Source of the DNA: Periplaneta americana
Taxonomy: Eukaryota > Arthropoda > Insecta > Blattodea > Blattidae
Length of the DNA stretch: 64,000 bases
Assembly (NCBI RefSeq): GCF_040183065.1
Contig: NC_091130.1
Coordinates: 128,937,914-129,001,913, forward strand
Direction: 5' to 3'
A program made the translations under genes and the position numbers. Every line of letters begins with the position of its first letter. Within the stretch, counting starts at the first letter, position 1. Of the stretch, positions 14,653-40,949 are shown in pieces. The notes beneath the pieces are model-generated. The model was not told the DNA's origin. It made no database searches and was given only the letters and a program-made list of their open reading frames with translations.

Positions 14653-14967
14653 ATTAACTAGTTTCGATGTTATTTCCATCAAGCCACCGGCGTGGCTCAG
14701 TCGGTTAAGGCGCTTGCCTGCCAGTCTGAAGTTACGTTCGGGCGTGGGCTCGATCCCCGCTTGGATTGATTATCTGGTTGGGTTTTTTTCCGAGGTTTTC
14801 CCCAACCGTAATGTGAATGAAAGGTAATCTGTGGCGAATCCTCGGCCTCATGTCGCCAAATATCATCTCGCTATCACCAATCTCATCGACGCTAAATAAC
14901 CTAGTAGTTGATACAGTGTCGTTAAATAACCAATTAAAATAAAAAATATTTCCATCATCTTCTGAAT
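14653..14967 (-). ncRNA. Hammerhead-like motif split by a SINE
   Basis: Removing the SINE and one target copy joins 14653-14681 to 14958-14967. Read on the minus strand this gives: stem I ATT, core CAGAAGA (CTGANGA with U4 changed), an extra T, stem II GATG/CATC around a 7-base loop, GAA, the palindrome ACTAGT, one T, and the stem I partner AAT. It has the same plan as the motifs at 26.7, 33.4 and 40.5 kb. Because of the insertion and the core change it is presumably inactive. Confidence 0.4.
14682..14946 (+). mobile_element. tRNA-derived SINE with 11-bp target duplication
   Basis: Starts with a tRNA-like head (A box TGGCTCAGTCGG, B box GGGCTCGATCC), then a body with GGTTTTCCCCAACCGTAATG and a TAAATAACC-rich tail. 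Flanked by tatttccatca at 14671-14681 and 14947-14957. A decayed relative of its body lies near 62010-62190. Confidence 0.85.
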
Positions 14968-15446
14968 ATGAACATACATATATATCTGTGTTTTATTACG
15001 TTCATTAACTTCCAGCCTATGAAAGAGAAATTATGTGATTTTAATACACCGTTTTATTATACCAGTATTTATGTCTGTCTTAGTAAAATTACTACTTCCA
15101 TTTTCGCTGGCCTATGTTATATTCTGGTAAGTATAAAATCCTTAAGTACAAACTAATAAAACGATTTTCAAAAGGAAAATAGTTTATAAAAGTTTATGTA
15201 GAAAGGAAATCCGGATTGACTTCTGATACTAAGCAATTGATGTAACAATCAGAATGGATAATGATAAATGAGAAGTACAGAAATAAATTTAAAAAAAATT
15301 TATTTAAAGAATACAATTGATTTCCATGCTTCTTTACATCTTCCCTTAATCCTACTTTTTTAATAATATTTTTTTAACTTTATTAAAATGGGGTTTTAGT
15401 AATTGTTGTCTCAGTGCTGTCACTGATTTTGTTTTCTATATTTCAG
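14968..15446. other. Intron upstream of exon 2
   Basis: AT-rich; ends in the acceptor ctatatttcag (15436-15446). Confidence 0.5.
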
Positions 15447-15754
15447 ATCTAAACTGCAAATACTTTAGGCGCAGCAGAACTAAGTCTAAGCCAAGATTTA
15501 TTGCCACAAATGCCACTATACAGTTTGGTGTAGATGAGACCTATGGCAAGCCGAAAAATTGGATGGTGAATGATGGACCTGGGACTTTCACATGCAATAT
15601 GTGTGGAAAAACATATCGATGGTACAGAAATCTTCAAAGTCATGTTCGTCAAGAATGTGGCAAAGAGCCACGTTTCCTATGTCCCTACTGTCCACATCGT
15701 ACCAAGATAAAGAGCAATTTAAAAAAACACATCAAGATTAAACATCAGACATAA
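15447..15754 (+). CDS. lola: lola alternative terminal exon 2 (C2HC + C2H2 zinc-finger pair)
   Basis: Alternative C-terminus of the nuclear BTB-zinc-finger factor Lola. It begins after the acceptor TTTCAG at 15446: AT completes a split codon, then 101 codons run to the stop with no interruption, although no ATG occurs before residue 39. The phase equals that of exon 1. If the upstream exon ends in G, both continue Asp-Leu-Asn. A basic, tyrosine-containing linker (1-46) precedes finger 1 (C49, C52, H65, C70; NMCGKTYRWYRN) and finger 2 (C78, C81, H94, H99; CPYCPHRTKIKSNLKKH). The protein ends two residues after the last histidine, so the exon is little more than the finger pair. A hAT-like insertion begins 184 bases after the stop. 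Confidence 0.9.
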
Positions 15755-15937
15755 GAAATTACATTTCATAAAATGTACAAGGTAAGAGACACAGACAGAA
15801 TTCACTCATTAGGATAAAGATCTGGACATAATGGACAGTAAAGTACTAACTCACCTGATGATGCCACTGCAAGCTGTTTTAGTTTCATATTTAAACAACC
15901 TTTTATTATGCTAATAATACTGGAAGGCTTCTGACAA

Positions 15938-17087
15938 CAGTGGCGGCTCCTGTGTATTTCTTAAGAGGAGGAAAGAAGTTAACAGCACGAAATGATACCT
16001 TCTTGAATGAAACATGCTACAAATTAGCCTACATGCATACATGTAACACCAGGTAGTGTTGGGGTTGGCCTTCCCTTCTGTATAGCAATAATCTGTCCTT
16101 GTAAACTGAGTTTCCTAAATTTTACAAAATATATTATGTTTTCACTTCCATTCATTGTTGAATAATTGCACAAATTAACAATTACAAGGAAATTCACAAC
16201 CTCGCAGCATTTCTCGCGCACACTACAGCATCACATGTGTTGGAAGGGACCAGCTACTAACAAGTAATCGGAACTGTTTTACGGAAGTGGAAATGGGAAA
16301 TAATCTGAGGAAAGCGAGAACACTGCACCCACCCACGTGGTCTGTGTTGCCACATGTACATTTTACAAGTTCAGGTCGTGTGGCTGTTGCCCTGTCTAGT
16401 AGACAATGAATGAAAGTGAATTTCAGGGGCCAAAAGACCAGCGATACTAACGTAGAACTAACTAGTTCCTCTCTGTTTTATATAAACTCAACTTTAACTT
16501 TCAAATATCCTTGAAAGTTTCAAACCATGTAAAGTAGCCTATATAAAGTGCAATGAATAATATTTTTTATTTATGATTTTAAAAAAAGCTTATATGGTAT
16601 CTTTCGTAGCTTTGGTTTAAAACTGTTTTTATTGTGCCTCCTCCTAGATGTGTTATAGTCTGGTTGAATGCAAAATCGTTAGATGGCAGCGGTAGCGAGC
16701 TTACTAGTCGGTTTCTATTTCCCGCCCATGCGCTGATTCAGAGGAGGATCTCCTCCCTCTCCGTTCATTTACTTGCTTTAAAACTCTGCTTCTTTCTCTG
16801 GCCGCTAGTGCGCTGTTGTCTATGTGTGTTAACTGCAGTGAAGGAGGAATGGATTGACTTTCCTCCACACAAACAATCTCGCATCTTTCTCACAGTTTTC
16901 TAGCAGCACATAAGCGCACGTTGTTTAAAACTCGATCAACCGAGGTTTTCTTATAGCTGAGAACTTAAAAATTATCGAATCTTCCTCGAATTTCAAGGCA
17001 CATATTTTAGTTGGTATTTACTTTCAAAAGAAAAAAAAAATGTGAGGAGGACGTTCCTCCCTTCCCTCCCCCGAGGAACCGCCACTG
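15938..17087. mobile_element. hAT-like non-autonomous element
   Basis: Terminal inverted repeats CAGTGGCGGCTCC and GGAACCGCCACTG; flanks tctgacaa (15930-15937) and cctgacaa (17088-17095) form an 8-bp duplication with one mismatch. AGGAGG/CCTCCT blocks follow each end. The interior has short open frames but no recognisable DDE or dimerisation domain. It sits in the likely 3'UTR or downstream intron of exon 2. Confidence 0.75.
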
Positions 17088-17095
17088 CCTGACAA

Positions 17096-19254
17096 CCAAT
17101 GACTACTTTAAATGAAGGTCATGTTCAAAGTATAATTCCTGTTGGAACTTCTTCAAGAGTCAGTTGTGAATTATTTGAATCAATATTTTGAGCACATTAA
17201 TTTGTCATGGTCGAATTTATTGAGTGCGGATAAAGTATTTCAAAGTAAAACTCTATTTCATTTCTCTTCATGGGGTATAATTAGCATGTATATATTAACT
17301 TCGTTGTTTCAAGAAAAAACTCATGAATAAAAATAATAGAATATATCGACTTACTTAATGAACAGAACATTCATGTTTCTTCATGAAAACGGCTATGCAT
17401 TGAGCAATGTTGTAGACATTTAAAAAGAAATACATAGGTACTATAATGTATGTTATGATATTTATGTATAAATAAAGGAATTGATTATTGCTACTGTTGA
17501 TTCTTTTGTGAAAATGCCTTTTGTGCAAGTCATAGATCTAGATCTGGGGTAGATAAAAATTGGTAATTTGCTATTTATAAATTTATGTTCGAAACTCGGA
17601 GAGTTCATGGTGGACAAAGACAGGTTTTGTCAGTGCATTCTTGCTTGTCCTGACAGTTTTCTACCATCTTTTCTTCCTAACTTATATGCAAATAAAGAAA
17701 GCACTTATGTTTTATCTAGACTTTTAATGTACCAGTATTATAGAAGTAAAGTGTGAAATCACCAGTGTAATGCTATGCTCTGAAACTTTAACATTATGCT
17801 CACGTGATCAGAATCAAATCATTCTCATCATTAATTGCATTCAGTGCTCAAATTTGTAAAAAAAAAAAAAAAAGGAATAACATAAGAGTTTTTATTAGCA
17901 AAACTCTCTTATTTATCTTCTTTCTATGTACTCGATTCTTGGCATAATTTTTCATAATTCAGAGATGAAATTTAGCAAATCAATGCTTTTTTTTTTCTTA
18001 AATACCTTCGATGCTGGGGTAATAGTTCATAATAGATAAAGGCCAAATCCTTTCTAATTTGTTCCTATTTGGCAATTCATAATCAGCCTGTCATCTCATT
18101 GATGCAAAATAACCTTCAAACTTGAAAATTTATTTAAATAGTACTGTACCCTAGTACTATTACTATTACTACTAGTACAGTGAATAAAAAAAGCATATTT
18201 TCACATTGTCCTTGCCCATTATATTTCTCGTAACATGACAAAATGGGAGACTTCAATAAAATATAGAGGGTCTCAGTGAAAGTTGATGTAATGTTTGTTG
18301 GTCAACCAGTGATTAAGTTCCCACATTACTGTTGCTGTTTGCCTGATGCAATTCCATCATTAGCAGTGTAAGCTGTGGTGTTATGCTGAAAATACGCCGT
18401 GAAATGTTCTTCATAGTATGATAATTCATCATACAGTGTTTCTAAAATGAGACTTATGTATTACTTCGCACTGCTATTTTTTTTTTCAACAGTTTTATGG
18501 GCACTGACGAACACCACACTCCTCTATGGGCAATGACGAACACCACACTCTTACTTTTTCATCATACGAGTACTGTTGACCAGTATCTGTTATTACGTGA
18601 TGGAACATGGCCATGCAGCTTCATGAAAAATAAAATCAGTCTGGGATCAGTTCTGCTGGTATTAATGTTTTATAACATCGAATTACAAAATAAAATGTAA
18701 TATGTATAAATAGGAACGGATTTCAAGGTGCTAAAAAGAGAGATTTAGAACTTTATAAAATACAATTTAGGACTTATAGAAGTTTATATAAAATTCCTAA
18801 TTTTAATTTTAGTAAATATTACATTTTAGGAATAATTTATGTACAGAGGACTGGTACTGACAATGAGTTCTACTGAACTGAAGACTGAAATTCTATCAGT
18901 GAAAGAGACTGATTGCTGATTGGTCAGTTTCATTTCCGATAATGGGAGTACACTGACACGAAAACTAATTTGTAAGCTCTCATCTAACCTAAACAACCTA
19001 CTACCCTTTTTATGCTAGGATGGACTTTTTCAAACGAATTTCAGTTCCAGGAAATTAGGTAAAATCTTCTTCCCTTACCTTCTAAGACCAATATGAAACA
19101 AACTTGCCAGACAAGTGTTTGTCTGTAAGAGATCCTTTTTGGGAAATTTTGCATTTTTGTACTGGTATTTTTATTTTAAATATACTCAAAATACTAAAAA
19201 GGTGCTTTTCAGGCAAAAACATAGTTTTTAGGCATTTATAGGAGTTTATGAGTT
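17096..19254. other. AT-rich sequence, nothing supported
   Basis: AATAAA at 17326 and 17471 could polyadenylate exon 2 transcripts if the hAT element is read through. No gene or element recognised. Confidence 0.35.
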
Positions 19255-19798
19255 AGGAGTAAAATTTGCTTTGGAACCATACGTTAGAACAGGTAAACTC
19301 ATTTAAATATTTAGGTTATAATTTGACATATTTACCTATTACTGATATATCTGAAAATATTCAACATTTTAATGGAGCCATAAGAACCATCAACCAGGTT
19401 TTCACATCCACGAAAACCCAAAAAACATACCAGATTAAAAGCATATAAAGTTCTAGCAAGACCTGTCCTCATGTATGGTAGTGAGGCCTGGACTGTCCGA
19501 AACTCAGATGTTCAATGCCTAACAACTGCGGAAATGAGATTTCTAAGGAGGACTGCCGGCTACAGCTTGCTTGACCACAAAAGGAATGAACTAATTACAA
19601 AAGAATTGGAAATTACACTTATTTATGAACATCTCAACCGCTGTAGACAAAAATGGCTTAACCATGTCAATAGGATGGACCATTCCAGACTCCTAAGACA
19701 AATTCTCCGCCATATACCACATAGAAGACGATCTTTGGGACGCCCCCTGAAAACATGGATGGAGACTATAACAGGCCACTAGGCCTAATACCTGCAAG
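19255..19798 (+). pseudogene. 3' end of a LINE reverse-transcriptase ORF
   Basis: Two overlapping-phase fragments (19266-19448 and 19471-19782) match the C-terminal region after the RT palm: VNSFKYLGYNL, then YGSEAWTVRNSD (the usual YGSETW box), a degraded RRTAGYSLLDHKRN motif, and WLNHVNRMD with a terminal RRSLGRPLKTWME. A frame break separates them near 19450. This is a different family from the minus-strand LINEs here. It is 5' truncated and runs directly into a GAT microsatellite that probably grew from its 3' tail. Confidence 0.75.
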
Positions 19799-19801
19799 GA
19801 C

Positions 19802-19842
<41 letters not shown>

Positions 19843-19885
19843 GGACGACGACGACGACGATGATGATGATGATGACGATGACGAT
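19799..19885. repeat. (GAT/GAC)n microsatellite
   Basis: About 85 bases of GAT units with an internal GAC run, immediately after the LINE fragment. Confidence 0.95.
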
Positions 19886-20414
19886 ATAGGAGTTTATGGT
19901 TAATTTAGATGTTTTAGGTTCTATAGAATTTTAATAGGGGGATCCTGTGTACATGAAATGTAGAGATATCTAAATAACATACGTCTAGGATGTAACAAAC
20001 AAAATAGGCATAGAACTAGAAATCCGTAGTGATAAATTAGGCTACTAATTAACATAATTATGCGAAATAATTCATGGCATATTTTTTGCAGGGTATATAA
20101 TACTACAGTTCATACTGCTTGTATGTATCCATGACTGAATTGCACTGGGCATTTGTGAAGATAAACAGCGACAGTGGTCAGCCAACATAGCCTATGTTAC
20201 ATTAGCGTTCACTGAGAATCTCTGTACAATTGCTTTACTTGTCCAAAATAATAAATTGTATATTTACTGCATTGAAACCTGTATCTTTATAGTCTGCATT
20301 CTGTTGTACCTATTCTATTTTATTATATTCAGAGGCATCATTTGTGGGGCAGGATAGAGCAATGCCCCCCCCCCACCCCATTTAAGATTGAAAGAAAATT
20401 AATAATTGAATAGT
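19886..20414. other. AT-rich intron
   Basis: Nothing recognised apart from a C run at about 20367. Confidence 0.4.
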
Positions 20415-22006
20415 ACTTACTTACTTACTTACAAATTGCTTTTAAGGAACCCGAAGGTTCATTGCCGCCCTCACATAAGCCCGCCATCGGTCCCTATCCT
20501 GTGCAAGATTAATCCAGTCTCTATCATCATATCCCACCTCCCTCAAATCCATTTTAATATTATCCTCCCATCTACGTCTCGGCCTCGCCAAAGGTCTTTT
20601 TCCCTCCGGTCTCCCAACTAACACTCTATATGCATTTCTGGATTCGCCCATACGTGCTACATGCCCTGCCCATCTCAAACGTCTGGATTTTATGTTCCTA
20701 ATTATGTCAGGTGAAGAATACAATGCGTGCAGTTCTGCATTGTGTAACTTTCTCCATTCTCCTGTAACTTCATCCCGCTTAGCCCCAAATATTTTCCTAA
20801 GCACCTTATTCTCAAATACCCTTAACCTATGTTCCTCTCTCAGAGTGAGAGTCCAAGTTTCACAACCATAAAGAACAACTGGTAATATAACTGCTTTATA
20901 AATTCTAACTTTCAGATTTTTTGACAGTAGACTAGATGATAAAAGCTTCTCAACCGAATAATAACACGCATTTCCCATATTTATTCTGTGTTTAATTTCC
21001 TCCTGAGTGTCATTTATATTTGTTACTGTTGCTCCAAGATATTTGAAATTTTCCACCCCTTCGAAGGATAAATCTCCAATTTTTATATTTCCATTTTGTG
21101 CAATATTCTAGTCACGAGACATAATCATATACTTTGTCTTTTCGGGATTTACTTCCAAACCGATTGCTTTACTTGCTTCCAGTAAAATTCCCGTGTTTTC
21201 CCTAATCGTTTGTGGATTTTCTCCTAACATATTCACATCATCTGCATAGACAAGAAGCTGATGTAACCCGTTCAATTCCAAACCCTGCCTGTTATCCTGA
21301 ACTTTCCTAATGGCATATTCTAAAGCGAAGTTAAAAAGTAAAGGTGATAGTGCATCTCCCTGCTTTAGCCCGCAGTGAATTGGAAAGGCATCAGATAGAA
21401 ACTACCTATACGGACTCTGCTGTATGTTTCACTGAGACACATTTTAATTAATCGGACTAGTTTCTTGGGAATACCAAATTCAATAAGAATATCATATAAT
21501 ACTGCCCTCTTAACCGAGTCATACGCCTTTTTGAAATCTATGAATAACTGATGTACTGTACCCTTATACTCCCATTTTTTCTCCAATATCTGTCGAATAC
21601 AAAAAATCTGATCAATAGTTGCTCTATTACGCCGAAAACCGCACTGATGATCCCCAATAATTTCATCTACGTACGGAGCTAATCTTCTCAAAAGAATATT
21701 GGACAAAATTTTGTATGACGTCAACAAAAGTGATATTCCTCGAAAGTTACCACAGTTGGTTTTGTTCCCCTTCTTAAAAATAGGTACAATTATGGACTCC
21801 TTCCATTGTTCTGGTACAATTTCCCTTTCCCAAATAGCAAGTACACGTTTATAAATTTCGCTATATAATGCACTTCCACCCTCTTGTATTAATTCTGCTG
21901 GAATTTGATCGATACCTGGAGACTTGTACTTTTTCAGATTTTCTATCGCTAAAGTACTGCTAAAGAAAAATGTGAGAACTGTACTTCTAATATTGAAATA
22001 TTCCAC
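20415..22006 (-). pseudogene. LINE (non-LTR retrotransposon) reverse transcriptase, longest copy, broken
   Basis: Reading right to left, 22006-21365 holds the RT fingers and palm: KYKSPGIDQIPAEL, PEQWKESIIVPIFKKG, FRGISLL, GFRRNRATIDQI and LFIDFKKAYDSV. The frame then shifts near 21395 and continues with [13 protein letters not shown] and the catalytic box VYADDV (about 21240-21260). A stop interrupts just after MSRD (about 21107). The last part (21056-20442) has FKYLGATVTN, YGCETWTL and a basic RRLRWAGHVAR tail. The 3' end carries a TAAG-repeat tail. The endonuclease part is absent (5' truncated). At least five shorter copies of the same family occur in the window, all antisense to lola. Confidence 0.9.
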
Positions 22007-22408
22007 TTTTATAACTGCGTCAGAAATAAAAGACGAGATTTGTTGGGGCTAATTCAGGAAATTATTTATGACAATACCTTATCCCATTAGGAATGCATCA
22101 GAAAATCTGGTGTTTTAATCCACTGTACAATTAAATGTTAATATTTTCAGCATATGAAATAAATTTATGAATATGTATTCATAATATAATAATTATATTA
22201 ATAATTTAGTATTACTTAATGTATTGAATTTGTATCGTCACTTAAAGAAAAGATCTTGTGTTATTTGCTAATACATAAATCTTACATTGAGGGCATAATA
22301 TAATGACGAAAGGTTTGAAGAAAGGAAAATATGTTTTATAGGCGATTTCTTCATAATTCTTGTTGCTTAAGATTATGATATATTGAAATATATTTTTCTT
22401 TCATCCAG
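22007..22408. other. Intron upstream of exon 3
   Basis: AT-rich; ends in the acceptor tttctttcatccag (22395-22408). Confidence 0.5.
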
Positions 22409-22728
22409 GCATATATTATGAAGATGTGACTGATGGAAGAATGCAAGATCTGGTTGACTGTCGATATCTTGAAGTGGGCTGTATGCAGTCAGGTTCCAAC
22501 GGGACTCAGGAACGTTTTACAAGTTGTATTGCAAGAGATGGACCTGGAATTTTTCCCTGTACAATGTGTGGAAAAGTGTATCGGTATTACAGAAATCTTC
22601 ATACACACCGTCAGCAATGTGGCAAGGAACCAAGGTTTCACTGTCCATTATGTAATTACCGTACAAAAGCCAAAAGCAATCTCAAGAGACATATATATCA
22701 TATGCATAAAAATTCTCTACCAATGTAG
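22409..22728 (+). CDS. lola: lola alternative terminal exon 3 (C2HC + C2H2, shortened first finger)
   Basis: Alternative Lola C-terminus. It begins after the acceptor CATCCAG at 22408 with two bases (GC), then 105 codons to TAG: the same phase as the other terminal exons. An acidic start (IYYEDVTDG) and a linker with three cysteines precede finger 1 (C50, C53, H66, C70; TMCGKVYRYYRN) and finger 2 (C78, C81, H94, H99; CPLCNYRTKAKSNLKRH). In finger 1 the spacing from His to the last Cys is three residues, one fewer than the four seen in the other exons, which should alter the zinc loop. A larger overlapping frame (22433-22933) is a shadow. The last finger half plus 3'UTR is duplicated in tandem downstream. 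AATAAA at 22768 lies 40 bases after the stop. Confidence 0.9.
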
Positions 22729-23454
22729 GAATATCCAAAGAAAGAACACAAGAGAATTCAACTGCGTAATAAATTTAAACCCAGTTATTGAAGAGTGTGT
22801 ACTGAGCCTTTCTGTGCATAATGTAATAATACAGAGCCTTCTTTTCTCTTTGGTTTGTACAATTATTGTTTTCATAGGTCATGCACTGCTTTATGTTTCA
22901 ATTTATAATGCTCTGATTTCTTGCAAAAAGTGAATGATCATTAAACCAGTGACATAATCACATCTTAAAATGCATTGCTGCTTATGTAATGTAATATTCA
23001 TCTCTGACTTGATATTAAATTATTCTTATTGATAGGAATGATGATCATTCTCATACAACAGCCAAAAGCAATCATAAGAGGCATGTAAAACATATGCATA
23101 AAAAGTATCTAACAATGTAGGAATATCCAAAGGAAGAACACAAGAGAATTCAACTGTGCAATAAATTTAAACCCAGTTATTGAAGAGTGTGTGTACTGAG
23201 CCTTTCTGTGCATAATGTAATAATACAGAGCCTTTTTTCTCCTTGGTTTGTACAATTACTGTTTTCATAGGTCATACATTGCTTTATGTTTCAATTTATA
23301 ATGCTCTGATTTCTTGCAAAAAGTGAATGATCATTAAACCAGTGACACAATCACATCTTAAAATACATTGCTGCTTATGTAATGTAATATTCATCTTTGT
23401 CTTGATATTAAATTATTCTTATTGATAGGAATGATGATCATTCTCATACAACAG
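22669..23454 (+). repeat. Tandem duplication (392-bp unit) of the exon 3 end and 3'UTR
   Basis: Copy 1 is 22669-23060 and copy 2 is 23061-23454, highly similar throughout. Copy 1 starts inside finger 2 at GCCAAAAGCAAT. In copy 2 the matching frame still reads AKSNHKRHVKHMHKK and ends in TAG, but the conserved Leu is now His and the upstream Cys pair is not present. Confidence 0.9.
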
Positions 23455-23727: not shown

Positions 23728-23740
23728 TATTGTTGGTAAG

Positions 23741-25878: not shown

Positions 25879-25921
<43 letters not shown>

Positions 25922-26689: not shown

Positions 26690-26750
26690 AATTCATATCA
26701 GTAATTGATTAACTAACGGTCTTACTCGTGTTAATTATGTAAGTCTGTGC

Positions 26751-26794
26751 GGCTTACAGCTGTTTCAGTGCTTCATCACACCATCCTCAGAGCC
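26751..26794 (-). ncRNA. Hammerhead-like motif, element D left arm
   Basis: Minus strand: stem I GGCT, core CTGAGGA, extra T, stem II GGTG/CACT around an 8-base loop, GAA, 8-base palindrome ACAGCTGT, one A, stem I partner AGCC. The conserved GAA is intact. A perfect palindrome in the stem III position would allow pairing between two RNA copies. Confidence 0.5.
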
Positions 26795-26935
26795 TACTAG
26801 ATCTCGGCGTCATCTCGAACTTCTCTGCCTGTTATGTGCCTGTGGTATATTTGACTCCACTTTTCAACACCTTTCAACAATGAAACGCACCCACATAACA
26901 GGCAGAGAAGTTCGAGATGATGCCGAGATCTAGTA

Positions 26936-26979
26936 GGCTCTGAGGATGGTGTGATGAAGCACCAAAACAGCTGTAAGCC
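26936..26979 (+). ncRNA. Hammerhead-like motif, element D right arm
   Basis: Plus strand: same plan as the left arm, with stem I GGCT/AGCC, core CTGAGGA, stem II GGTG/CACC and palindrome ACAGCTGT. The G of GAA is A, which would be expected to impair catalysis. Confidence 0.45.
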
Positions 26980-27295
26980 GCACAGACTTACATAATTAAC
27001 ACGAGTAAGTCCGCTAGTTAATCAATTACTTATATACAAGTGTTAAAAGTAGTGTACGCAAGATTCAAAATGGATAATTCATATCAATGCCCATAGTTTT
27101 TGAAATTGGAAATGAAAATCCGAGTCTAATAAATGAACATTGACTCACTGTATATTCATTTTAAATTTCAATTAGGGAATGCATATTGTTGCACACGATT
27201 GAAAAATGGTGCTGTATGCATTTTCTTAGAAAAGAATCTGAAATTTAAAGTAATAAATCTATAGTCTTACTATACTTTTTATTGATTTACACTAT

Positions 27296-27538: not shown

Positions 27539-27636
27539 ACTGTATTGACAAAATATGTGAAGTCTGTGTAATCACATTATATTACTGGTGTGTGGATAAG
27601 CTTCAGGGCTTCTACCGCGTTATCTTGATGTTATTG

Positions 27637-27676
27637 GCTGACGTTTCGACCGCTGTGTTGTGGCCATCTTCAGAGC
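27637..27676 (-). ncRNA. Hammerhead-like motif, element A copy 1 left arm
   Basis: Minus strand: stem I GCT, core CTGAAGA, extra T, stem II GGCC/GGTC (one G-U pair) around a 10-base loop, GAA, palindrome ACGT, C, stem I partner AGC. Confidence 0.45.
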
Positions 27677-27717
27677 AGTTGTTGGATAAGGAAATAGTCT
27701 GCCAGCACTTATATATA

Positions 27718-28437
27718 CAGGGTGTTTCAAAAATACGGGGCATAATTTCAGGAATGTATTTCCCACATGTAGACAATCAAAATAGTTCATTACAACATGT
27801 GTCTGGAAACGCTTTATTTCCGAGTTATGGCCTTCATAACATTGAAATTCACTGGAATGTTTTTCTTTCCGCAGGTCGTTGCCGTCAAAGGAGACATTAA
27901 GAGGGCACTCTGACAGTTCATTCCGAGGCGAAGGTTACATTCAGTGTTGTGTAGGCGTTAGACTGTGCGACATGTATTCAAATCAAACAGACTTACGGGG
28001 CAGGTGTACATAAACTTCCTGGAAAACACCATACCTTATGTTTTAGAAGACACTCCACTGATCAATCGTCAACACATTCACTTCTTACATGATGGCGCTC
28101 CTGCACACTTCAGTCGTACGGCTCGCCGGTACTTGGATCGAAGGTTCCCTGATCGATGGATAGGTAGAGGTGGCCCAATTGCTTGGCCTCCACGCTCACC
28201 TGATCTGAACCCTTTCGATTTCTACTTGTGGGGCCATTTAAAATCATTGGTTTATTCGTCTCCGGTGCCTGATTTGGAATCCCTTCGGAATCGAATTGTG
28301 GCATGTTCTGAGGACATACGCAATACTCCTGGAGTTTGGGAAGCATTTCCGGACACATGTTGTAATGAACTATTTTGATTGTCTATGTGTGGGAAATACA
28401 TACCTGAAATTATGCCCCGTATTTTTTAAACACTCTG
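27718..28437 (+). mobile_element. Internally deleted Tc1/mariner-superfamily transposon
   Basis: Precisely bounded: the ends CAGGGTGTTTCAAAAATACG and its inverted partner ...AAACACTCTG lie between TA dinucleotides (27716-27717 and 28438-28439). The terminal inverted repeats extend about 97 bp with only a few mismatches, unusually long for the group. Only 720 bp remain, so it is non-autonomous. It landed in the left arm of foldback element A and is therefore younger than that element. Confidence 0.9.
27965..28378 (+). pseudogene. C-terminal half of a Tc1/mariner transposase
   Basis: Open frame of 137 codons inside the 720-bp element. It carries the second catalytic aspartate in HFLHDGAPAHF (codon 28091) and the third in SPDLNPFDFYLWG (codon 28217), separated by about 41 residues. 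The N-terminal DNA-binding domain and the first aspartate are missing. The last codons overlap the 3' terminal repeat. Lack of stops suggests a recent deletion product, but it cannot act as a transposase alone. Confidence 0.85.
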
Positions 28438-28946
28438 TATAGCAGTCTCGATGGGGGGAGTACCTGCTGTGATAGGTCGTAGGTTCTCCTTCTGGCATCT
28501 GATTGGGCCTACGTTGTCCCATCCGGTTGAGGTCTGTACGAAGGGGAGTATTCATATTAAATACTGGCCCTCATAAGGTACGAAAGACCTTCCACAAAGC
28601 CTTCCACATCAAACAACATCAACAAGGACGAGGGGTTACAACTGAGCAACTCATGGGGAAGTCTATTCCAAGATCATACTTAGGAACGAGAAGCCAGGTC
28701 TCCACATGTACTCGGCGCCCCCCTTCATCCGGACATCGGACACGGTATCAAGGTCACTCTTTCGGACCTTATGAGGGCCAGTATTTAATATGAATACTCC
28801 CCTTCATACAGACCTCAACCGGATTGGACAACATAGGCCCAATCAGATGCCAGAAGGAGAACCTACGACCTATCACAGCAAGTACTCCCCCCATCGAGAC
28901 TACTATATATATAAGTGCTGGCAGACTATTTCCTTATCCAACAACA

Positions 28947-28986
28947 GCTCTGAAGATGGCCACAATACAGCGGTCGAAACGTCAGC
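28947..28986 (+). ncRNA. Hammerhead-like motif, element A copy 1 right arm
   Basis: Plus strand: GCT, CTGAAGA, T, GGCC/GGTC, GAA, ACGT, C, AGC; identical plan to the left arm. Confidence 0.45.
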
Positions 28987-29219
28987 CAATAACACCAAGA
29001 CAACACGGTAGAAGCCCTGAAGCTTATCCACACACCATGTACACCAGCCGCGGAAGCCTACGCGAACATTATATGACTACCTAAGGCTTACTACTTTAAT
29101 ATCATTCTGTCACTCTCCAAGTGGAGATATTCCCATATTCTTTCAAAAGTTTGAGGTGGGCAGTCCTAGCTGCTATTATTAAATGTAATAAGTTACTAAA
29201 ATAATTATTATTGGTACAT

Positions 29220-29707: not shown

Positions 29708-29808
29708 TTATTGGTACATATTTAAATAATCTCACTGAATCAAGTAATGAGATGGGGTGGTCTCTGGATAAACTTCGGGGCTTATACCGTGTTGTCTTGC
29801 TGTTGGTG

Positions 29809-29845
29809 GCTGATGTTTCGACCACTGTGTTGTCATCTTCAGAGC
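29809..29845 (-). ncRNA. Hammerhead-like motif, element A copy 2 left arm
   Basis: GCT, CTGAAGA, T, shortened stem II GAC/GTC region (weaker on this strand), GAA, ATGT in the palindrome slot (self-pairing only through G-U), C, AGC. Confidence 0.35.
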
Positions 29846-29877
29846 TGAGAAAATTGGATAAAGAAATAGTTTGCTCA

Positions 29878-29914
29878 GCTCTGAAGATGACAACACAGCA
29901 GTCGAAATGTCAGC
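29878..29914 (+). ncRNA. Hammerhead-like motif, element A copy 2 right arm
   Basis: GCT, CTGAAGA, T, stem II GAC/GTC, GAA, ATGT, C, AGC. The stem I pair GCT/AGC is kept despite divergence elsewhere. Confidence 0.4.
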
Positions 29915-30000
29915 CACCAACACCAAGACAACGTGGTATAAGCCCCGAAGTTTATCCAGAGACCATGTACACCAGCCGCGGAAGCCATGTGAACACTTAA

Positions 30001-31465: not shown

Positions 31466-31955
31466 GAAGTAGCCTTTGTATATTATGTGATGTCCTAAGT
31501 AGCATGATTTAATTTCATTATAAATTCCAAAATATTTCAATGAATAGTTAACCTTAATCTACAACAGTTTGGATAGCTTTTAACACACACTGGAATTACA
31601 GAATTCATTAGTAGTATAAAATTTGCTGTAATAAATCTTCTTTTCAATACGCCTATTGAAACAATGAGTTTTTTTTTTTTTTTTCTTTTTGTGTTTATAA
31701 GTGAAGTGTCCATTCTAAAGCTTATTATGTAACTGTATTATACCTCCCTTAATTTTCACGTCACTCTGTCATGAAAGTAAGCAATAGATATAAAATAATT
31801 TTTAGTGTAAAAGGTAGAATACTGAGTGAAATTTATTTATTTGCAGTACAGATAACTTACTACATCGATTTGTCATGAAAATAACATATGTGCTACAACT
31901 TTCATCTATACTTATTTTGAGATCTAAAATTAACATTACTTCTATTATTTTATAG
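31466..31955. other. Intron upstream of exon 4
   Basis: AT-rich; ends in the acceptor tctattattttatag (31941-31955). Confidence 0.5.
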
Positions 31956-32230
31956 GTTTTATAGAAGAATCCATCCTTAAAAATTTGATGCCTTACGGAA
32001 TTACGACTCCTTCCATGTCAGATGGGCCTGGTGTTTTTTGTTGCACAAATTGTGGGAAAGTGTACCGATGGCGGAGAAATCTGCAGCGTCACCAGCGTTT
32101 TGAATGTGGAAAATTACCTTCTTTGCAATGTCCATACTGCCCTCACTGCACAAAGTTGAAAGCTAATCTGAAGAAGCATATCATTCAGCAACATAAACAA
32201 GTTTTTGACGAGAATTTAATATTATCATAA
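31956..32230 (+). CDS. lola: lola alternative terminal exon 4 (C2HC + C2H2 zinc-finger pair)
   Basis: Alternative Lola C-terminus. After the acceptor TTATAG (31955), two bases (GT) are followed by 90 codons to TAA, with the shared phase. A very short linker (FIEESILKNLMPYGITT) leads to DGPGVF, a stretch it shares with exons 2 and 3 (DGPGTF, DGPGIF). Finger 1 is C29, C32, H45, C50 (TNCGKVYRWRRN), very close to exon 1. Finger 2 is C58, C61, H74, H79 (CPYCPHCTKLKANLKKH). There is an extra Cys right before C29 and another inside finger 2. The inter-finger joint reads CGKLPSLQ rather than CGKEPQFQ, a departure at positions usually fixed. Confidence 0.9.
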
Positions 32231-32588
32231 GGAGTATTATTTAAATTTGACAAAAGCTGTATTGGATGGATTGTCAATTTGGTCTCCACTTAATTTTGGT
32301 ATATTTTTCTTAAATTTATAATCAAGAGTTTGTAATTTTTTTATCTTTAAAATGCTGAAGTCTTAGTATTGTTCTTTCTTGCCATATTTTCTTTGGTGTG
32401 TAATGCTTTTTGAAAGAATTGTCAAATGCGTGATTTATAGCAATCTGTTGAATAATTGGAAATTTATTCATTTAAGGTATAACAATTTGTTGGAATATAG
32501 CAAAACCTCAAGTTATCTTCCTTTTCAGAATATTGACAGATATTTTAAAAATGTTTTGTTATTATTACGTTAAAATCCTTCAACTTAT
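32231..32588. other. Likely 3'UTR of exon 4
   Basis: T-rich, no AATAAA seen before the transposon cluster begins. Confidence 0.4.
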
Positions 32589-32669
32589 TCTACTAGGTAA
32601 ATAATTAGTAGAAAAACCGCAACATGAGGTCCGAACTCTGAGCCGAGCTGCTCACACACTCTGCTTATA

Positions 32670-33235
32670 CAGAGGTGTGAAAATTATTAGAATAATCTTA
32701 ATTTTAAAGGGGTTTTTTAATAGTTCCTTCACAAATATTCATTGAATTGATGAATATTGGTATATAATATTACTATACTGATGTAGGATATATTTACTAC
32801 TAACAATGCCGGAGAGCATTGTTGTACGTTGGTATTTTTCTTATTTTACAATTGTTATGGGAATTCAGAAATTATTATATTATGTTGGCGGAATTGGAAA
32901 CATAAAAAATTAATTAAGAAATGCTTTAAACAAATTGTTCTTTGCGTTTACATTGTTGTGAAGGTTCAAATGAACGTATACATCTGTTTTGTGCATATAA
33001 TTTTTTATGTTTCCAATTCCGCCAACATAATATAATAATTTCTGAATTCCCATAACAATTGTAAAATAAGAAAAATACCAATGTACAACAATGCTTTCTG
33101 GCATTGTTAGTAGTAAATATATCCTACAACAGTATAGTAATATATACCAATATTCATCAATTCAATTAATATTTGTGAAGGAACTATTAAAAAACCTTTA
33201 AAATTAAGATTATTCTAATAATTTTCACACCTCTG
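32670..33235. mobile_element. Foldback Tc1-type MITE (566 bp, arms about 240 bp)
   Basis: Ends CAGAGGTGTGAAAATTATTA and its inverted partner lie between TA dinucleotides (32668-32669, 33236-33237). The arms are almost perfect complements around a short centre near 32955. No transposase. TA flanks and the CAGAGGTG end suit the Tc1/mariner superfamily. Confidence 0.85.
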
Positions 33236-33365
33236 TACAGTTTGCTATTGGCGATATGCCATGCAGTATTGGGAATTCAGCACAACACAAACTATTAATG
33301 TAATAAATTTCAATTGGACCGTCTATGCTTATCTTGTATTACAAATATAATTTTATTGATTTGTT

Positions 33366-33407
33366 ACATTAACGTTTTCGGTATTATGGTGTACCATCTT
33401 CAGATGT
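33366..33407 (-). ncRNA. Hammerhead-like motif, element C left arm (best copy)
   Basis: Minus strand: stem I ACAT, core CTGAAGA, extra T, stem II GGTA/TACC with an 8-base loop, GAA, palindrome AACGTT, A, stem I partner ATGT. Every pairing is Watson-Crick and both conserved boxes are intact. The only departure from the textbook hammerhead is the extra T between CTGANGA and stem II, and a stem III that must form between two molecules. Confidence 0.5.
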
Positions 33408-34171
33408 ACAGTATACGTGATACTAAATGTAAACCTAGCCAATAGGTGCATGTGTTGTGGTCTTAGATGATCTGTTTATGTACGTAACATACTACTGGGT
33501 ATACCCATGATCAATTACAGTGGTTATATAAATACCATAAAACACTTATATACTATTAATTAGATAAAACAAACAATTAATATCAGTTATTTAAAAACCA
33601 GTGATCATTTCTGTTATGACGTGATCTAGGTTACATGATGTTGTTGATGTGTGTTGTCGTGATAGTTCAATGGGACAACAAGTTATTAAAACTTCACTAC
33701 ATTGATTGCACTGTAATGGTGGATATATATAAAATTGAACCTTGAAGTTTCTTTTCTGATGGGTATTGTCACTTATTGTTCGATGTTGTACACACATATA
33801 ATGTTAAAGCACTTTAAATTAGAACGTAGCGTGGAGTACACCAATGATAAGAGTTTTTGCGCGTAAATTAACTAATTCACCTTACTATATTTTAAGTTAC
33901 AATTTCTTTTGAGTTGGTTGTCACTCCCAGGATTCCAGTCTAGCCTTGCTTTCTGCGAACAATATAGATTAAGTTGTAAGAGTTTTTGTTAATATTAGTT
34001 GATGCACTGCTGTAAATGATATGTGATAAACTTACATTCAGGCAGCTGGATGTGGTGTGTTTTCGGTGATGGCTTGGCTTATGGGTATAGTATGTTACGT
34101 ACATAAACACAGATCACCTAAGACCACAACACATGCATCTATTGGCCAGGTTTACATTTAGTATCACATAT

Positions 34172-34213
34172 ACATCTGAAGATGGTACACCATAGTACCA
34201 AAAACGTTAATGT
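34172..34213 (+). ncRNA. Hammerhead-like motif, element C right arm
   Basis: Same layout (ACAT, CTGAAGA, T, GGTAC/GTACC, AACGTT, A, ATGT) but GAA is AAA. Confidence 0.45.
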
Positions 34214-34789
34214 AACAAATCAATAAAATTATATTTGTAATACAAGATAAACATAGATGGTCCAATTGAAATTTATTACATTATAGTTAGCTTATCGGAA
34301 AATCAAAACAAGACAAACTATTAAGCCAAAATATTACTTAAAAATGGCTTTTAGAGAACCCGGAGATTCATTGCTGCCTTCACATAAGTCCGCCATCAGT
34401 CCCTATCCTGAGCAAGATTAATCTAGTCCCTAGCATCATATCTCAACTCCCTCAAATCCATTTTAATATTATTCTCCCATCTACATCTCAGCCTCCCCAA
34501 AGGTCTTTTTCCCTCCGGTCTCCCAACTAAGACTCTATATGCATTTTTGGATTCGCCCATATGTGCTACATGCCCTGCCCATTTCAAACGTCTGGATTTA
34601 ATGTTCTTAATTATGTCAGGTGAAGAATACAATGCGTGCAGGTCAGCATTGTGTAACTTTCTCCATTCTCCTGTAACTTCATCCCTCTTAGCTTCAAATA
34701 TTTTCCTAAGCACTTTATTTTCTAACATCCTTAACCTCTGGTGTGTGGATAAGCTTCAGAGCTTCTACCGCATTGTCTTGGTGTTATTG

Positions 34790-34829
34790 GCTGACGTTTC
34801 GACCGCTGTGTTGTGGCCATCTTCAGAGC
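34790..34829 (-). ncRNA. Hammerhead-like motif, element A copy 3 left arm
   Basis: GCT, CTGAAGA, T, GGCC/GGTC, GAA, ACGT, C, AGC; same as copy 1. Confidence 0.45.
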
Positions 34830-34922
34830 AGTTGTTGGATAAGGAAATAGTCTGCCAGCACTTATATATATAGTAGTCTCGATGGGGGAGGGGCTGGCAG
34901 ACTATTTCCTTATCCAACAACT

Positions 34923-34962
34923 GCTCTGAAGATGGTCACAACACAGCGGTTGAAACGTCAGC
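34923..34962 (+). ncRNA. Hammerhead-like motif, element A copy 3 right arm
   Basis: Same plan; stem II is weakened to GGTC/GGTT. Confidence 0.4.
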
Positions 34963-35226
34963 CAATAACACCAAGACAACGCAGTAGAAGCCCTGAAGCT
35001 TATCCACACACCATGTACACCAGCCGCGGAAGGCTACGCGAACACTTATCCTTAACCTCTGTTCCTCTCTCAAAGTGAGAGTCCAAGTTTCACAACCATA
35101 TTCTTTTTATATAATCTTTCAGGTTTTTTGAGAGCAGACTGGTTGACAAAAGCTTCTCAACCGAATAATGACGGACATTTCCCTTATTTATTCTGCGTTT
35201 AATTTTCAAATACTTGTCAAAGCTGT

Positions 35227-35573
35227 TAAGAAGTGATGCATTTCCCATTGAGAAATGGAGACGATGTTTTCCCGGATGCTATTTTTCATTTATTTCAGGG
35301 TACTTATCTGGATTATTTTAGAGTTCTCCACAAATAAATGTCAATGAAAAGATAAAATCACGCTACCTTTCTGATGAGACTCTGCAACAGCTCATAGAGC
35401 CTATTATTCTATGGATGGCCTTCATAAAGTATTCGAGGGTGGAGAACTTTAAAATGCAAACTGTACAGAAATAATCCATATAGGTGCTCAGAAAAAACTG
35501 AAAATTAGCATCCTGGAAAACATCGGCTCCATTTCTCCACAAGAACTGCAGTTACTGATGCATCACTTCTTAA
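35227..35573. repeat. Foldback repeat
   Basis: TTAAGAAGTGATGCAT at 35228 mirrors ATGCATCACTTCTTAA ending at 35573, with further pairing of GAGAAATGGAG and CTCCATTTCTC. Probably a MITE. No motif of the hammerhead type found. Confidence 0.6.
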
Positions 35574-35840
35574 ATGGGTGGGACAAATGTTGGGAACAAG
35601 AAGGCAGACAGTTTTAGCATTCTTTTCTTAATATTTGGGTTTGTAAGTGATGCTTTAACTGCTTATATTCAGTATTATTTTACGTTAATTGCTTGAGGCG
35701 TGTTAGATTACCAATACTGTGTGGTCTATAACCAATATTAAGCCCTCCACATAAGCAGAGTCTACAAGCAGCTCATCCAAGAGTTGAGCCACCACATTGC
35801 GGTTTCTCTAAAATCTGTTCACCCAGTAAATACAATAGCT

Positions 35841-36612
35841 TGTTGGGGAAAAAAAAGAAGATGCAATATTAAACCATATTTTACCTTCCAGATGTTTTCA
35901 TTTTCCTGTGTTAATACAACATTTTCAATAATTTTGACAGAATGCATCTCAAATTATACTTAGGTTAACTAATATACATAGACTCTGAATTCTATTACAG
36001 TATAAGATTTCTTTAAGCTCTTCTATTGTTGTAGAAAAATAGTCTGAACATACATTCTGTTCTGTATTGCTTTCATTTATGTAGTATTTTGAACCCTTAT
36101 TATTTTTATAGTTTCCTGACAGAGTAGGACTAATATTTTATAATGTTATACATTTATCTTGAAGTGAGAGATGATAGTATCGTCTGGGATTGTATTAAAC
36201 TTAACTAATCTGAGAAAATAACCTAAGAGGAGTTCCTTACTATATAGGGTGTAACTAAATTATATGTCAAAATTTTAAGGAAACATTCCTCTTACAAGAG
36301 GATGAAAATATGCTATATGAGCATGGATCCGTAAATGCTTGATTTCCTCGTTAGAGCTCCTTTTTTAAACCCCGCTTACATTGTATGATGCGCAAGTTAT
36401 TTTTCTAAACCCTGCTTACATTCTAAGATGCATAAGAAATATTGGTTTTTTGGGGACTGCATCATAGATATTGTGTATGTTACACCCAATAACAGAACAC
36501 TGAACATCAGAACTGTGGAAAACACACAGAAAGAGAATGTACAGTACATTATCCCCACCCCAACTCCACCCCATGTGTAATTACATTCTAACCAGAGATA
36601 AACAAAAGCATC
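35841..36612. other. AT-rich intron
   Basis: Nothing recognised. Confidence 0.4.
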
Positions 36613-36614
36613 TA

Positions 36615-37605
36615 CAGTAAAACCCCGATAAGACGCTATTCAAGGGACGCGTGTAAACTGCGTATTAACTGGGACCGCGTATTAGGCAGATATACTAATT
36701 TTGACTTCTATACAGTATCTATTAGCATTTTTCTTTATTGAAATACATGATTCATGAAAGGTAATATAGTATTACTCCATTATGTAATTACTGTACTGTA
36801 CGTCAAAGACATTTACAATATGTACTGCACTTAATTCTTTCGGAAAGAAAGTCATTTATAGTTGTTTGCCATGTGCGTGTTCTCCAAGTCCTCATGTTTA
36901 CCACACTTCAGTTTCCTGCGATTTTAACCCCCTGACGACATCGCAACTGTAGTGATTGAGTCGCAGTTTTTTATTATCATTCTTAATATCGATGATGGGA
37001 TTCCTAATGCATCAGAGAGTTGTTTCTGAGTAAGAGTACTGCTCTTCATACTTCATAAGATTTCCAATTTTTCCGACACAGAAAGCTCTTTTCGTTTAAC
37101 ATTCATTGTAATGACATTCACAGACACTCCAATACACTAAAGGACAACAAACTGCCCAACAAAAATTTCCAGAATTTTATTACGGCCGAGTCAGGAATAC
37201 TGTTTGAGAGAGAGAGAGAGTTAGCAAGAGGGTGAGTTATTGTAACTGTATGTAAACTTTAGCTCGCAGGTAAAGAGTCGAAGAAGAGAGCATAACAAGA
37301 GATGGGGTATACTAAGGTATGAAGTATGAAGGTTTAAACGCGCAGATAAAAGGTCGAATACCAATACTTTTCAGGTTAATGGCACCAGTGAGTTCAATGA
37401 TCAAGATGTTTCATTGCTGTTACAGTACATTGCTGAAAATTATATCGAAAATATTCCACAAAAAAAGCGTATTATGCGGGACGTGGGCGCAACAAACGGG
37501 ATATTTTATAAAGGCGTTATATATGAAATGTGCAGGGACTGCACAAAAAAAGCATATTACATGGGATAGCATAATAAGCGGGCGCATCTTATCGAGGTTT
37601 TACTG
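36615..37605 (-). mobile_element. pogo/Tigger-like element, broken copy
   Basis: Terminal inverted repeat CAGTAAAACCCCGATAAGAC at the left; right end CTTATCGAGGTTTTACTG; TA at both flanks (36613-36614, 37606-37607). It is the reverse complement of 57301-58296 throughout. The helix-turn-helix frame that is open in that copy has a TGA soon after its start here (near 37085). About 1 kb, so most of a transposase is missing. Confidence 0.85.
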
Positions 37606-37607
37606 TA

Positions 37608-40141
37608 TATGTAATCAGACTATTCTAGTGTGGAGTTGTTATATGAAAGCTATGATGACATTTCACACTAACTAGCTTGCATTCTAACAAAGACATAAAG
37701 TGTTTCCAGACTCATGTTTATATAACATAATTTCATCATCTACATGTCGATGGATGAGAACCAGACTCTTCTAAGTCCAACTTTTTATAAGAAAGAAATG
37801 TGTAATTCATTGTGTTCCAGTTCTTGTCTGCATATATGAATCGAACAAAATTGTAAATATTCCTCTCCATAAGGTTGCTATGAAGCTATTCTAAATTTTT
37901 CATGAAGCTTTGAATGTCAGGAGCTTAAAATAGTTTTCCTGAAAAAAAAAAAAAAAAGTAAAATGGACTTGGAACAGTCTTGTTCTGGGCCATCGATGTG
38001 AAGAATGTGTCCCTAAAGTTATAGCATACATATTTGTTACATTCTGTATAATGATGCAACTTAATGTAAAATCTGATTCTTTGCAAGGATGACTACCTTA
38101 CTTAATAGTACATTCATGACACATATTTATGTATGGTTTTTCCATTAGTAAACAAATTTTACTAATGGAAGTTCAAATTAATTGAAGTCTTAGTAAAACA
38201 GACCTCTTATTTTGAGTAACTCACATTATAATACTATCAATGTAAGCTGATATCATTCTAATTCGCTGTGCATGTCACACTTCAATCCTGTGGGACTGAA
38301 TGTTTTCAAACTGATACCTATACTACTGATAGATAGCCTCAGTAATTGAAAATAAATATTTAAAAAAATTGCAGTAGATAACATATACCTTCAGGAAACA
38401 CATTTTTGTTTCGAGTAAGTACTATATTATGTCTTTATTTTCGAATAAAATATTGTGCCATATTGTTTCATTATTTACTATATAATAAGCAGAAAATAAA
38501 AGAAAAATGTTGTTCTTAATTTTAGTCAAAAGAAAAATGTTGTTCTTAATTTTAGTAAAAAGTTGAAGTAATGTATGTAGTTCCCAATTTTGTGTTGTTT
38601 GTGTTCGAGATTAAGTGACATTTAAAGAATAAAGAATTCATGTACAGCGTGCATAAACAAAAGCAACACTTATTTCCTTATTAATTCTAATTATATTGTA
38701 TGATTTTTATGCTGTATTATTTGTATTTTGTAATAGTCACTTTTCAGTTGTGTGTTCGCAAATGGCATACATTTTTTGCAGTATTCTGTAACATTGTAAG
38801 ACCTCAAATAAGCCATTTGAATAAAACATATTTAGCATAAATTGCACAGAGCATATTGTATCCTTATTAATTTGTATGTATACACACACATCTTATTCTG
38901 AGCCTGATAAGGATCATTGTAACAAAATGTTTTTCAGTATATCTCTCTTTGAATGTATTGAATTATGATGTGTGTGAGAGAGAGAGAGAGAGATATGAGT
39001 GTATGTAGATGGTTTGAGAATATACAGTGGTGTGTAATTCTGTCTTATCGCACTGGAGTAGTAAAAATACTAGAAAATAATACCATTGGAACATGCTCAC
39101 TCTCACATAAAACATACCGGTACATTATCTTTATTCATTCATAGCTTTCTGCCCTAGAACAGGTCTTTCACTGCAAGAAAATCAGCATTCTTCAATCTTC
39201 CCTATTTTCTACCTTTCTCTTAGTTTCCACATACGATCCATATATCTAAATGTTGTCTATCAATTAATATCTGCTTCTACCCCGAACTTTTGTCCCGTTC
39301 ACTATTCCTTCCAGTGCATCCTTCAGTATGCAATTCCTTCTTAGCCAGTGACCCAACCAATTACTTTATATCTTTCTGATCCTATTTTTATTGTAACTAT
39401 TTTATTAAATATATATAGCCAATTCAGAATCATCAAGACAGTGTTTTAACGCACACTTGTTGATCTTATGATGAATACAAATGCTGTATGTACTTAATAT
39501 ATAATACCGGTATTTAAGAATTAAGTAAGAACAAACATTCTTATTTAAAGAATATTCACATTTAATTCTTAATCACACCATCAGGTGATCATGTTCAGAG
39601 GAATATTCCAAAAATGTTTTAAGATAGAGAAAATCCATTATGAGGATTGCTGTCCTTAAAGGGTTACTGAAATGATACACCTACTATTTAGCCCATTACA
39701 AAGGATAATAATCAAAATACGCTAAGAATATTTAACATTTTATAAATAAAAGATTAAATAAGCAATAACTAGTTTTAACATGTACTTGTATATGAATATG
39801 GCAGCTATCCCTATATCATTATATATTTTATTTTCCATTTAAATCAGATTATACAAACGATTATGCAGAATAAGCAACGAATCACATATAATTTGACTAC
39901 CAATGTCGTGCAGCACACTAAGTTTGAGTCCAAATCTTTTAAACACATTCACTGTAAATTTTATATTGCACCTCGAGCACCAAAACTGTTTTGGCATTGT
40001 AATGGCTTCTCCCTTAGTTTTGAAACGTTCTTTTATCGAGATTGAAACATTTGTCATATTGTGAAAGTAATATTTCTATTGCATTATCGGAAGCTTTATG
40101 TCCTATAATTTTAACCATCATGATATATACTGTATATCTTC
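37608..40141. other. AT-rich intron
   Basis: A 32-base unit is tandemly doubled at about 38497-38562, and a short GA run lies at 38974-38992. No gene or element end recognised. Confidence 0.4.
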
Positions 40142-40239
40142 ATGTCCTTAACACTGTTAAACTTTGTTTCTCTAATTATTATTTAGAGCAATGTCCTTAA
40201 CACTGTTAAACTTTGTTTCTCTAATGATTATTTAGAGCA
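40142..40239. repeat. Tandem duplication, 49-bp unit
   Basis: 40142-40190 and 40191-40239 are nearly identical, starting ATGTCCTTAACACTG; one base differs near the end. Confidence 0.9.
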
Positions 40240-40548
40240 GGAAAGGGGTGAGTTCTATGCTGATAAATTCAAGATTCACCTAACAATGTTTTACAGAGTT
40301 CAACATGGTGCATTCTGCTGGAAAATTGTTGGGTCACCCTGTCCTGGTATGTTATTGTTACACTAATTTAATTTCGAACAGGTCAGTGGAGATGTATACA
40401 ATGCAAAAATATATAATTGTAATTTAAATGGAAACGTCCAGGACTGTCAACGAAATTTTCATACATCTTGATTACACAACTTTTAACACTGTATCACTTC
40501 GGAATATGTATGATAAGTACTTTATTGTGTTAAATATTAACGTACCTT

Positions 40549-40587
40549 GTTAACATGTTTCGACCTATTTTCGGTCATCTTCGGAAC
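40549..40587 (-). ncRNA. Hammerhead-like motif, element B left arm
   Basis: Stem I GTT, core CCGAAGA (U4 is C), extra T, stem II GACC/GGTC with a 7-base loop, GAA, palindrome ACATGT, T, stem I partner AAC. Confidence 0.4.
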
Positions 40588-40910
40588 TGGTCGTTGTTGG
40601 TCTTGGCGCCTCTTGTTTCCTTTGTGGGTGTGTTCATAGTGTAGAGTCCAAAAGTGTATGTGTTTTGAAATTGAGTTGTGTGTTGAGAATATCATTGGGG
40701 TGTGTTTTCGTGTGTCTGTATATTTCATATTGTTCTAGTGTGTTGAGTTTCTGGCTTTTTGGTTGGATGTGCAAGTATACAGATACACGAAAACACACCC
40801 CAGCGATATTCTCAACACACAACTCAATTTGAAAACACATACACTCTTTGACTCTGCACTACGAACGCACCCACACAGGAAACAAGAGGCGCCAAGGCCA
40901 ACAACGACCA

Positions 40911-40949
40911 GTTCCGATGATGACCGAAAATAGGTCGAAACATGTTAAC
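40911..40949 (+). ncRNA. Hammerhead-like motif, element B right arm
   Basis: Same plan with core CCGATGA. Both arms share the U4-to-C change. Confidence 0.4.

Follow-up and report, generated by a model that had tools for sequence, protein, structure and literature searches.

Features of the Window and Motif Scan

The window is the whole stretch of DNA analysed in the present study, that is, 64,000 nucleotides of the Periplaneta americana genome (NC_091130.1, positions 128,937,914 to 129,001,913, forward strand), and all positions below are counted from its first letter. Repeated C2H2 zinc-finger exons were found at 6387-6740, 15350-15754, 22387-22728, 31934-32230, 41894-42442, 56784-57122, and 62450-62806 (Pfam matches on three), and we take them to resemble the alternative exons of a lola-like gene. 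The window also contained inverted-repeat elements, or foldbacks, that carry a hammerhead-like motif.

The motif was scanned with a strict pattern consisting of CTGANGA, 0 or 1 inserted base, a stem II of at least 3 bp, GAA, a palindromic stem III, and a stem I of at least 3 bp. The strict scan returned 7 matches in the window, each with one inserted T, whereas the mean over 100 dinucleotide shuffles was 0.01 and the maximum was 1. The first-pass annotation had placed the motif at 13 sites, with an extra T after the core in every family. When one mismatch was allowed, 11 of these 13 sites were recovered, and the extra T was present in all 11. The sites gained in this way were those at 26.94 and 34.17 kb, where GAA is changed to AAA, and those at 40.55/40.91 kb, where the core is CCGANGA. 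The other two did not hold up. The site at 14653 lacks CTGANGA, matched in neither scan, and consists only of a minus-strand half motif, GATGGAAATAACATCGAAACTAGT; the left site at 29.8 kb has decayed, as it also matched in neither scan and its stem III, ACAT, is by eye not self-complementary. The one-mismatch scan further returned an unrelated match without insertion at 49274. An inserted-A match at 1566 looked like chance, since neither a stem I nor a palindrome could be seen by eye.

BLAST revealed that the pairs at 27.6/28.95, 29.8/29.9, and 34.8/34.9 kb are copies of one family, A. The window thus contains four motif families (A, B, C, and D), where at least five had been claimed. The features are as follows.

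14640..14690, minus strand: claimed site, half motif (stem II, GAA, palindrome ACTAGT) without CTGANGA, which does not qualify (window scans)
26701..27074, plus strand: element B, with inverted arms and a right-hand tail of 45 nt; TAATTCATATCA on both flanks (26689, 27075), 12 bp
26751..26794, minus strand: family B left motif, GGCT/CTGAGGA/T/GGTGT..GCACT/GAA/ACAGCTGT/A/AGCC, intact (scans)
26936..26979, plus strand: family B right motif, with AAA instead of GAA (one-mismatch scan)
27583..29065, plus strand: element A1, with inverted arms interrupted by a transposon (27714-28441); ACATTATAT on both flanks (27574, 29066) as a weak repeat of 9 bp
27637..27676, minus strand: family A1 left motif, intact (strict and one-mismatch scans)
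28588..28683, plus strand: probable C-terminal end of the family A reading frame, PSTKPSTSNNINKDEGLQLSNSWGSLFQDHT, then stop TAG, between the A1 arms
28947..28986, plus strand: family A1 right motif, intact; the ATG at 28956-28958 opens MATIQRSKRQPITPRQHGRSPEAYPHTMYTSRGSLREH across arm and tail (scans, translation)
29806..29845, minus strand: decayed left motif of family A2, in which stem III reads ACAT (by eye)
29878..29914, plus strand: right motif of family A2, with a 3-bp stem II (scans)
33299..34312, plus strand: element C, with inverted arms and a right-hand tail of 32 nt; ACAAACTATTAA on both flanks (33287, 34313), 12 bp
33365..33408, minus strand: family C left motif, TACAT/CTGAAGA/T/GGTA..TACC/GAA/AACGTT/A/ATGTA, intact (scans)
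34171..34214, plus strand: family C right motif, with AAA instead of GAA (one-mismatch scan)
34741..35047, plus strand: element A3, with inverted arms and a right-hand tail of 36 nt; ATCCTTAACCTCTG on both flanks (34727, 35048), 14 bp
34790..34829, minus strand: family A3 left motif, intact (scans)
34923..34962, plus strand: family A3 right motif, intact (scans)
40463..40996, minus strand: element D, with inverted arms and a left-hand tail of 39 nt; CGAAATTTTCAT on both flanks (40451, 40997), 12 bp
40549..40587, minus strand: family D left motif, core CCGAAGA (one-mismatch scan)
40911..40949, plus strand: family D right motif, core CCGATGA (one-mismatch scan)

Several further sequences were observed beside these features. 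By eye, a tRNA-derived SINE-like stretch at 14690-14760 starts at the breakpoint of the half motif at 14653. The transposon in the A1 left arm (27714-28441) has 93% inverted ends and a DDE_3 match of 4.2e-6, just below the Pfam cut-off. A motif-free foldback of 570 bp at 32668-33237 has the ends CAGAGGTGTGAAAA and, by eye, TA flanks, like a Tc1/mariner-type MITE, and a small motif-free foldback at 41267-41460 has 45 nt (84%) in common with the tail of element D. The letters AAG-GTACGT after a motif of element D (40940-40960) form a possible splice donor of a Penelope-like element (PLE) intron.

Covariation of the Motif Stems

The hammerhead core consists of CUGANGA and GAA, and the base at the cut site is not G. 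The motifs have this core, paired stems I and II, and a cut-site base other than G. A covariation alignment was prepared by hand. It contained eight family rows, selected because their stems are intact (F1 and F2, which are identical there, share one row), and the decayed copies, namely, the A2 left motif, the B and C right motifs, L047, and L086, were left out. All 72 of the 72 cells (9 pairs in eight rows) were paired, which is partly a matter of choice because the rows were picked for intact stems and decayed copies were omitted. Changes on both sides of a pair occurred in 26 cells versus 6.7 in shuffles, and the covariation score reached 1.06, compared with 0.24 for shuffles and no more than 0.125 after sliding the alignment. 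These results confirmed compensatory changes between the families. Among the 92 motif strings listed for contig C1, a stem II of at least 3 bp was kept in 45 of the 52 distinct strings, the first pair being set by the pattern, and 29 of the 92 contained a stop inside the motif. The motif is real, and its fold is under selection. The motif together with the compensatory changes supported a minimal type I hammerhead fold as in PLEs, in which a palindrome replaces stem III, as the first-pass annotation had proposed.

The hammerhead models of Rfam reported no match in the window and none on 8 PLE loci up to an E of 5. An Rfam match to mir-2513 at 29806-29917 (61.9 bits, threshold 89) was rejected as a miRNA, since it coincides, on either strand, with the long hairpin formed by element A2.

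Start Codon in Gene-Bearing Families

PLE genes were located in the genome by an RT-linked motif. The pattern ADKGN.T occurred at 218 places (reversed control, 0), 100 of which were listed and 80 fetched; 79 PLE gene loci from these 80 places are included in a set of 117 fetched genome loci. The sites counted were 80 distinct ones, each with at least 900 nt upstream. In 13 of the 80, the hammerhead-like motif CTGAAGATG preceded the RT-linked motif by 835-843 nt; these copies fall into five families, each with its own stems. By eye, stem III is broken in one of the loci, L086. The full core was absent at the remaining 67 sites, although one of them, L047, came close with a near match at -831. 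Truncation or inversion of the copies may account for these sites, which is a guess.

In all 13 copies, A9-U-G is ATG, and in 10 of the 13, this ATG shares the reading frame of the RT-linked motif. The frame was open from the ATG through the RT-linked motif in 8 of the 13 copies, which belong to three families. Two frames of 784 and 786 aa reached the end of the fetched locus, and RVT_1 was found in both; the Pfam values for RVT_1 were 4.6e-13 for L059 and 2e-15 for L064. The same two loci also contained GIY...YIG letters (GIYKIPCECGEVYIG and GVYRIPCSCGKVYIG) in frames cut by the locus end, and Pfam gave no match up to an E of 0.01 to a GIY-YIG domain, the endonuclease at the C-terminus of PLEs. 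The first amino acids varied between families, and the fold was kept. Because A9-U-G is ATG and is mostly in frame in these copies, the extra T is simply the U of the start codon in these gene-bearing families.

Family A was examined in the same respect. The search for its start in the genome yielded 2,945 first-look candidates, of which 150 were scored, all at 3.7e-17 or better, and the 39-aa start was without a stop in 148 of the 150. Among the matches listed, 20 of 30 family A loci had an inverted partner within 1.5 kb, and only 1 of the 30, L019, ran on into a gene. At L019, the frame is open for 182 aa from the motif ATG, past the tail, and into PLE coding sequence; the frame is broken further on, and RVT_1 (8.1e-10) was found downstream in a frame other than that of the start. 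Apart from L019, BLAST with 500 nt of this continuation matched nothing but 38 nt in L027, so the other 29 loci stop at or near the tail. Family A thus has a pseudo-LTR that includes the first codons and is extended by a tail, and a GIY-YIG endonuclease was not seen for it. Between the A1 arms, the peptide PSTKPSTSNNINKDEGLQLSNSWGSLFQDHT encoded at 28588..28683 presumably belongs with PLE C-termini, which it resembles. Counting family A through L019 with the five families above, the inserted base is the U of the start codon in six gene-bearing families.

Inserted Base across the Genome

The motif was counted by pattern over the 3.23-Gb assembly, with reversed patterns as controls. A T inserted before the G was found in 16,203 motifs (control, 47). 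One of the other three bases took its place in 4,186 motifs (control, 193), A alone accounting for 2,345 (control, 102), and 320 motifs had no inserted base (control, 211). A decay control with the core G8 changed gave 1,029 motifs (control, 155). The T count, together with the window shuffles, ruled out chance as the source of the motif. An inserted base is the rule in this genome, with U the commonest but not the only base. A type I hammerhead has no base between the core and stem II, whereas one inserted base was present in all 11 recovered window sites; what had been regarded as an unusual trait of these copies is the general state across the genome and completes an ATG in the gene-bearing PLEs.

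The non-T motifs, about 4,000 above their control and mostly with a total length of 30 or 34, were not due to decay alone, because their number exceeded that of the G8 decay control. The start codon was therefore excluded as the sole reason for the inserted base. These numbers, along with the near absence of motifs without an insertion and the T retained by B, C, and D, whose frames close soon after the ATG, point to a base that is structural in this hammerhead variant, with its use as a start codon secondary. However, T is by far the commonest base, and the 13 gene-bearing copies and L019 use it in an ATG. We regard the structural reading as a serious possibility that falls somewhat short of probable. 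It is compatible with the start-codon reading, and both can hold.

Build of the Elements and the Predicted Cut Site

The elements consist of inverted arms with a one-sided tail beyond one arm, which was 25-45 nt in the five elements measured. Target duplications of 12-14 bp flanked 4 of the 6 elements (14 bp in A3; 12 bp in B, C, and D). No flanking duplication of 8 bp or more was found for A2. The 9 bp repeat of A1 is weak, as 4 nt are by eye left over and one motif-free inverted repeat also has 9 bp; none of the 10 motif-free inverted repeats had a flanking repeat above 9 bp. Among the matches listed, the head-to-head arrangement was observed in 22 of 24 neighbouring pairs within 2 kb for 100 T motifs, in 9 of 11 neighbouring pairs for 98 non-T motifs, and in 10 of 10 neighbouring pairs of RT-linked motifs (100 of the 218). 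The tails, the duplications, and the family A coding sequence ruled out foldback DNA transposons as a general reading. The foldbacks had been described as unrelated carriers of the motif; instead, their inverted arms, one-sided tails, and target duplications, together with the family A coding sequence, identified them as Penelope-like retroelements.

In five elements, the inserted copies extended 82-103 nt past the predicted cut site, and their templates were therefore not ended by the ribozyme. This would also be expected if the fold were kept because the PLE protein or the ribosome binds or initiates there, with no cutting in the animal. The core letters and the palindrome, however, fit what is generally required for catalysis. 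The available text of PMC11167929 gives support to both sides: insertion in vitro had no need of the cut, and public RNA-seq contained no RNA ends at the cut site, but the Anolis motif does cut when the protein is present. We consider a fold maintained without cutting unlikely.

Affiliation of Families B, C, and D

Elements B, C, and D have all three traits of build, namely, inverted arms, a one-sided tail of 30-45 nt, and a target duplication. BLAST of the B, C, and D arms against the 117 fetched loci found no match, and no gene was found behind them. Because of this and the early closing of their frames, their assignment to PLEs rests on build, motif, and the likeness of the B and D tails (26.7 and 40.5 kb), which are partly alike over 31 nt (87%, E 3e-5). 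They are candidate members, PLE-like by build only. That they are foldback or MITE-type DNA transposons with a hammerhead-like motif would agree with these negative results, but is quite improbable given that their 12 bp duplications and one-sided tails are as in family A, that the B and D tails are alike, and that such duplications are absent from the 10 motif-free inverted repeats.

Proposed Mechanism

Collectively, it is very probable that the motifs are minimal type I hammerheads of Penelope-like retroelements that lie over the gene start within the pseudo-LTR, with A9-U-G10.1 as the ATG. The foldbacks would be head-to-head pairs of inverted pseudo-LTRs left by PLE insertion. Two motifs, on tandem transcripts or on two RNAs, would likely pair through the palindromic stem III, and the cut would likely fall one base beyond the palindrome, at a distance of 27-30 nt (hand count) from the first base of the ATG; the PLE protein probably helps the cutting. 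Since such a cut would leave the ATG and the remainder of the gene on separate RNAs, the folded ribozyme and translation would be mutually exclusive.

We tentatively suggest, as a proposal that could well prove wrong, that the ribozyme junction and the start codon form one structure in which ribosome loading and folding compete. The PLE protein would favour the fold, so that its own mRNA is cut and becomes untranslatable, and gene-less families would keep the base since the variant ribozyme needs it. If folding and translation do exclude each other, the role of PLE hammerheads becomes directly testable. The hammerhead interpretation turns a list of foldbacks into one explained thing, and a start codon inside the ribozyme junction offers a testable reason for the inserted base. 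Having that base is the normal state of this kind of hammerhead in this genome, and none of the motifs tried was picked up by the Rfam models.

Comparison with Known Systems

Minimal hammerheads of Penelope-like elements were reportedly described by Cervera and de la Pena in 2014 and by Lunse, Weinberg and Breaker in 2017. The motifs here are of this known kind in new families, and the inserted base may already be described in these two papers, the main ones on hammerheads of PLEs. In the available text of PMC7761336 and PMC6155905, PLE minimal hammerheads are of type I, have a short or missing stem III, occur in PLE repeats, and are thought to be active as dimers; the present motifs are alike in type, stem III, and location in PLE repeats.

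Metazoan retrozymes, as outlined in part of PMC7229834, are non-autonomous elements with type I hammerheads for which PLEs are proposed as helpers; they have short tandem repeats and canonical motifs, whereas inverted pairs and minimal motifs were found here. The Penelope elements of Adineta vaga (PMC3846280) have an inverted pseudo-LTR without a tail, a 31-bp tail on the other one, 8-10 bp duplications, and pseudo-LTRs that contain the first codons. This is the same build as that of the window elements, and the portion of PMC3846280 available makes no mention of a hammerhead.

A further close system is PAc, a Poseidon element of Anolis carolinensis, one PLE for which, according to the available sections of PMC11167929, a start codon at hammerhead stem II is stated in print. 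Its ORF begins at stem II, with C3 and G8 before the start codon, and the RNA is cut 26 bp after the start codon in a reaction that needs protein, insertion in vitro being independent of the cut. As far as that account goes, PAc is like the present families in having a hammerhead at the start codon and a tail. It differs in its tandem pseudo-LTRs, whereas the window elements are inverted pairs, and it is one lizard element tested in vitro, whereas several insect families are described here from sequence evidence only.
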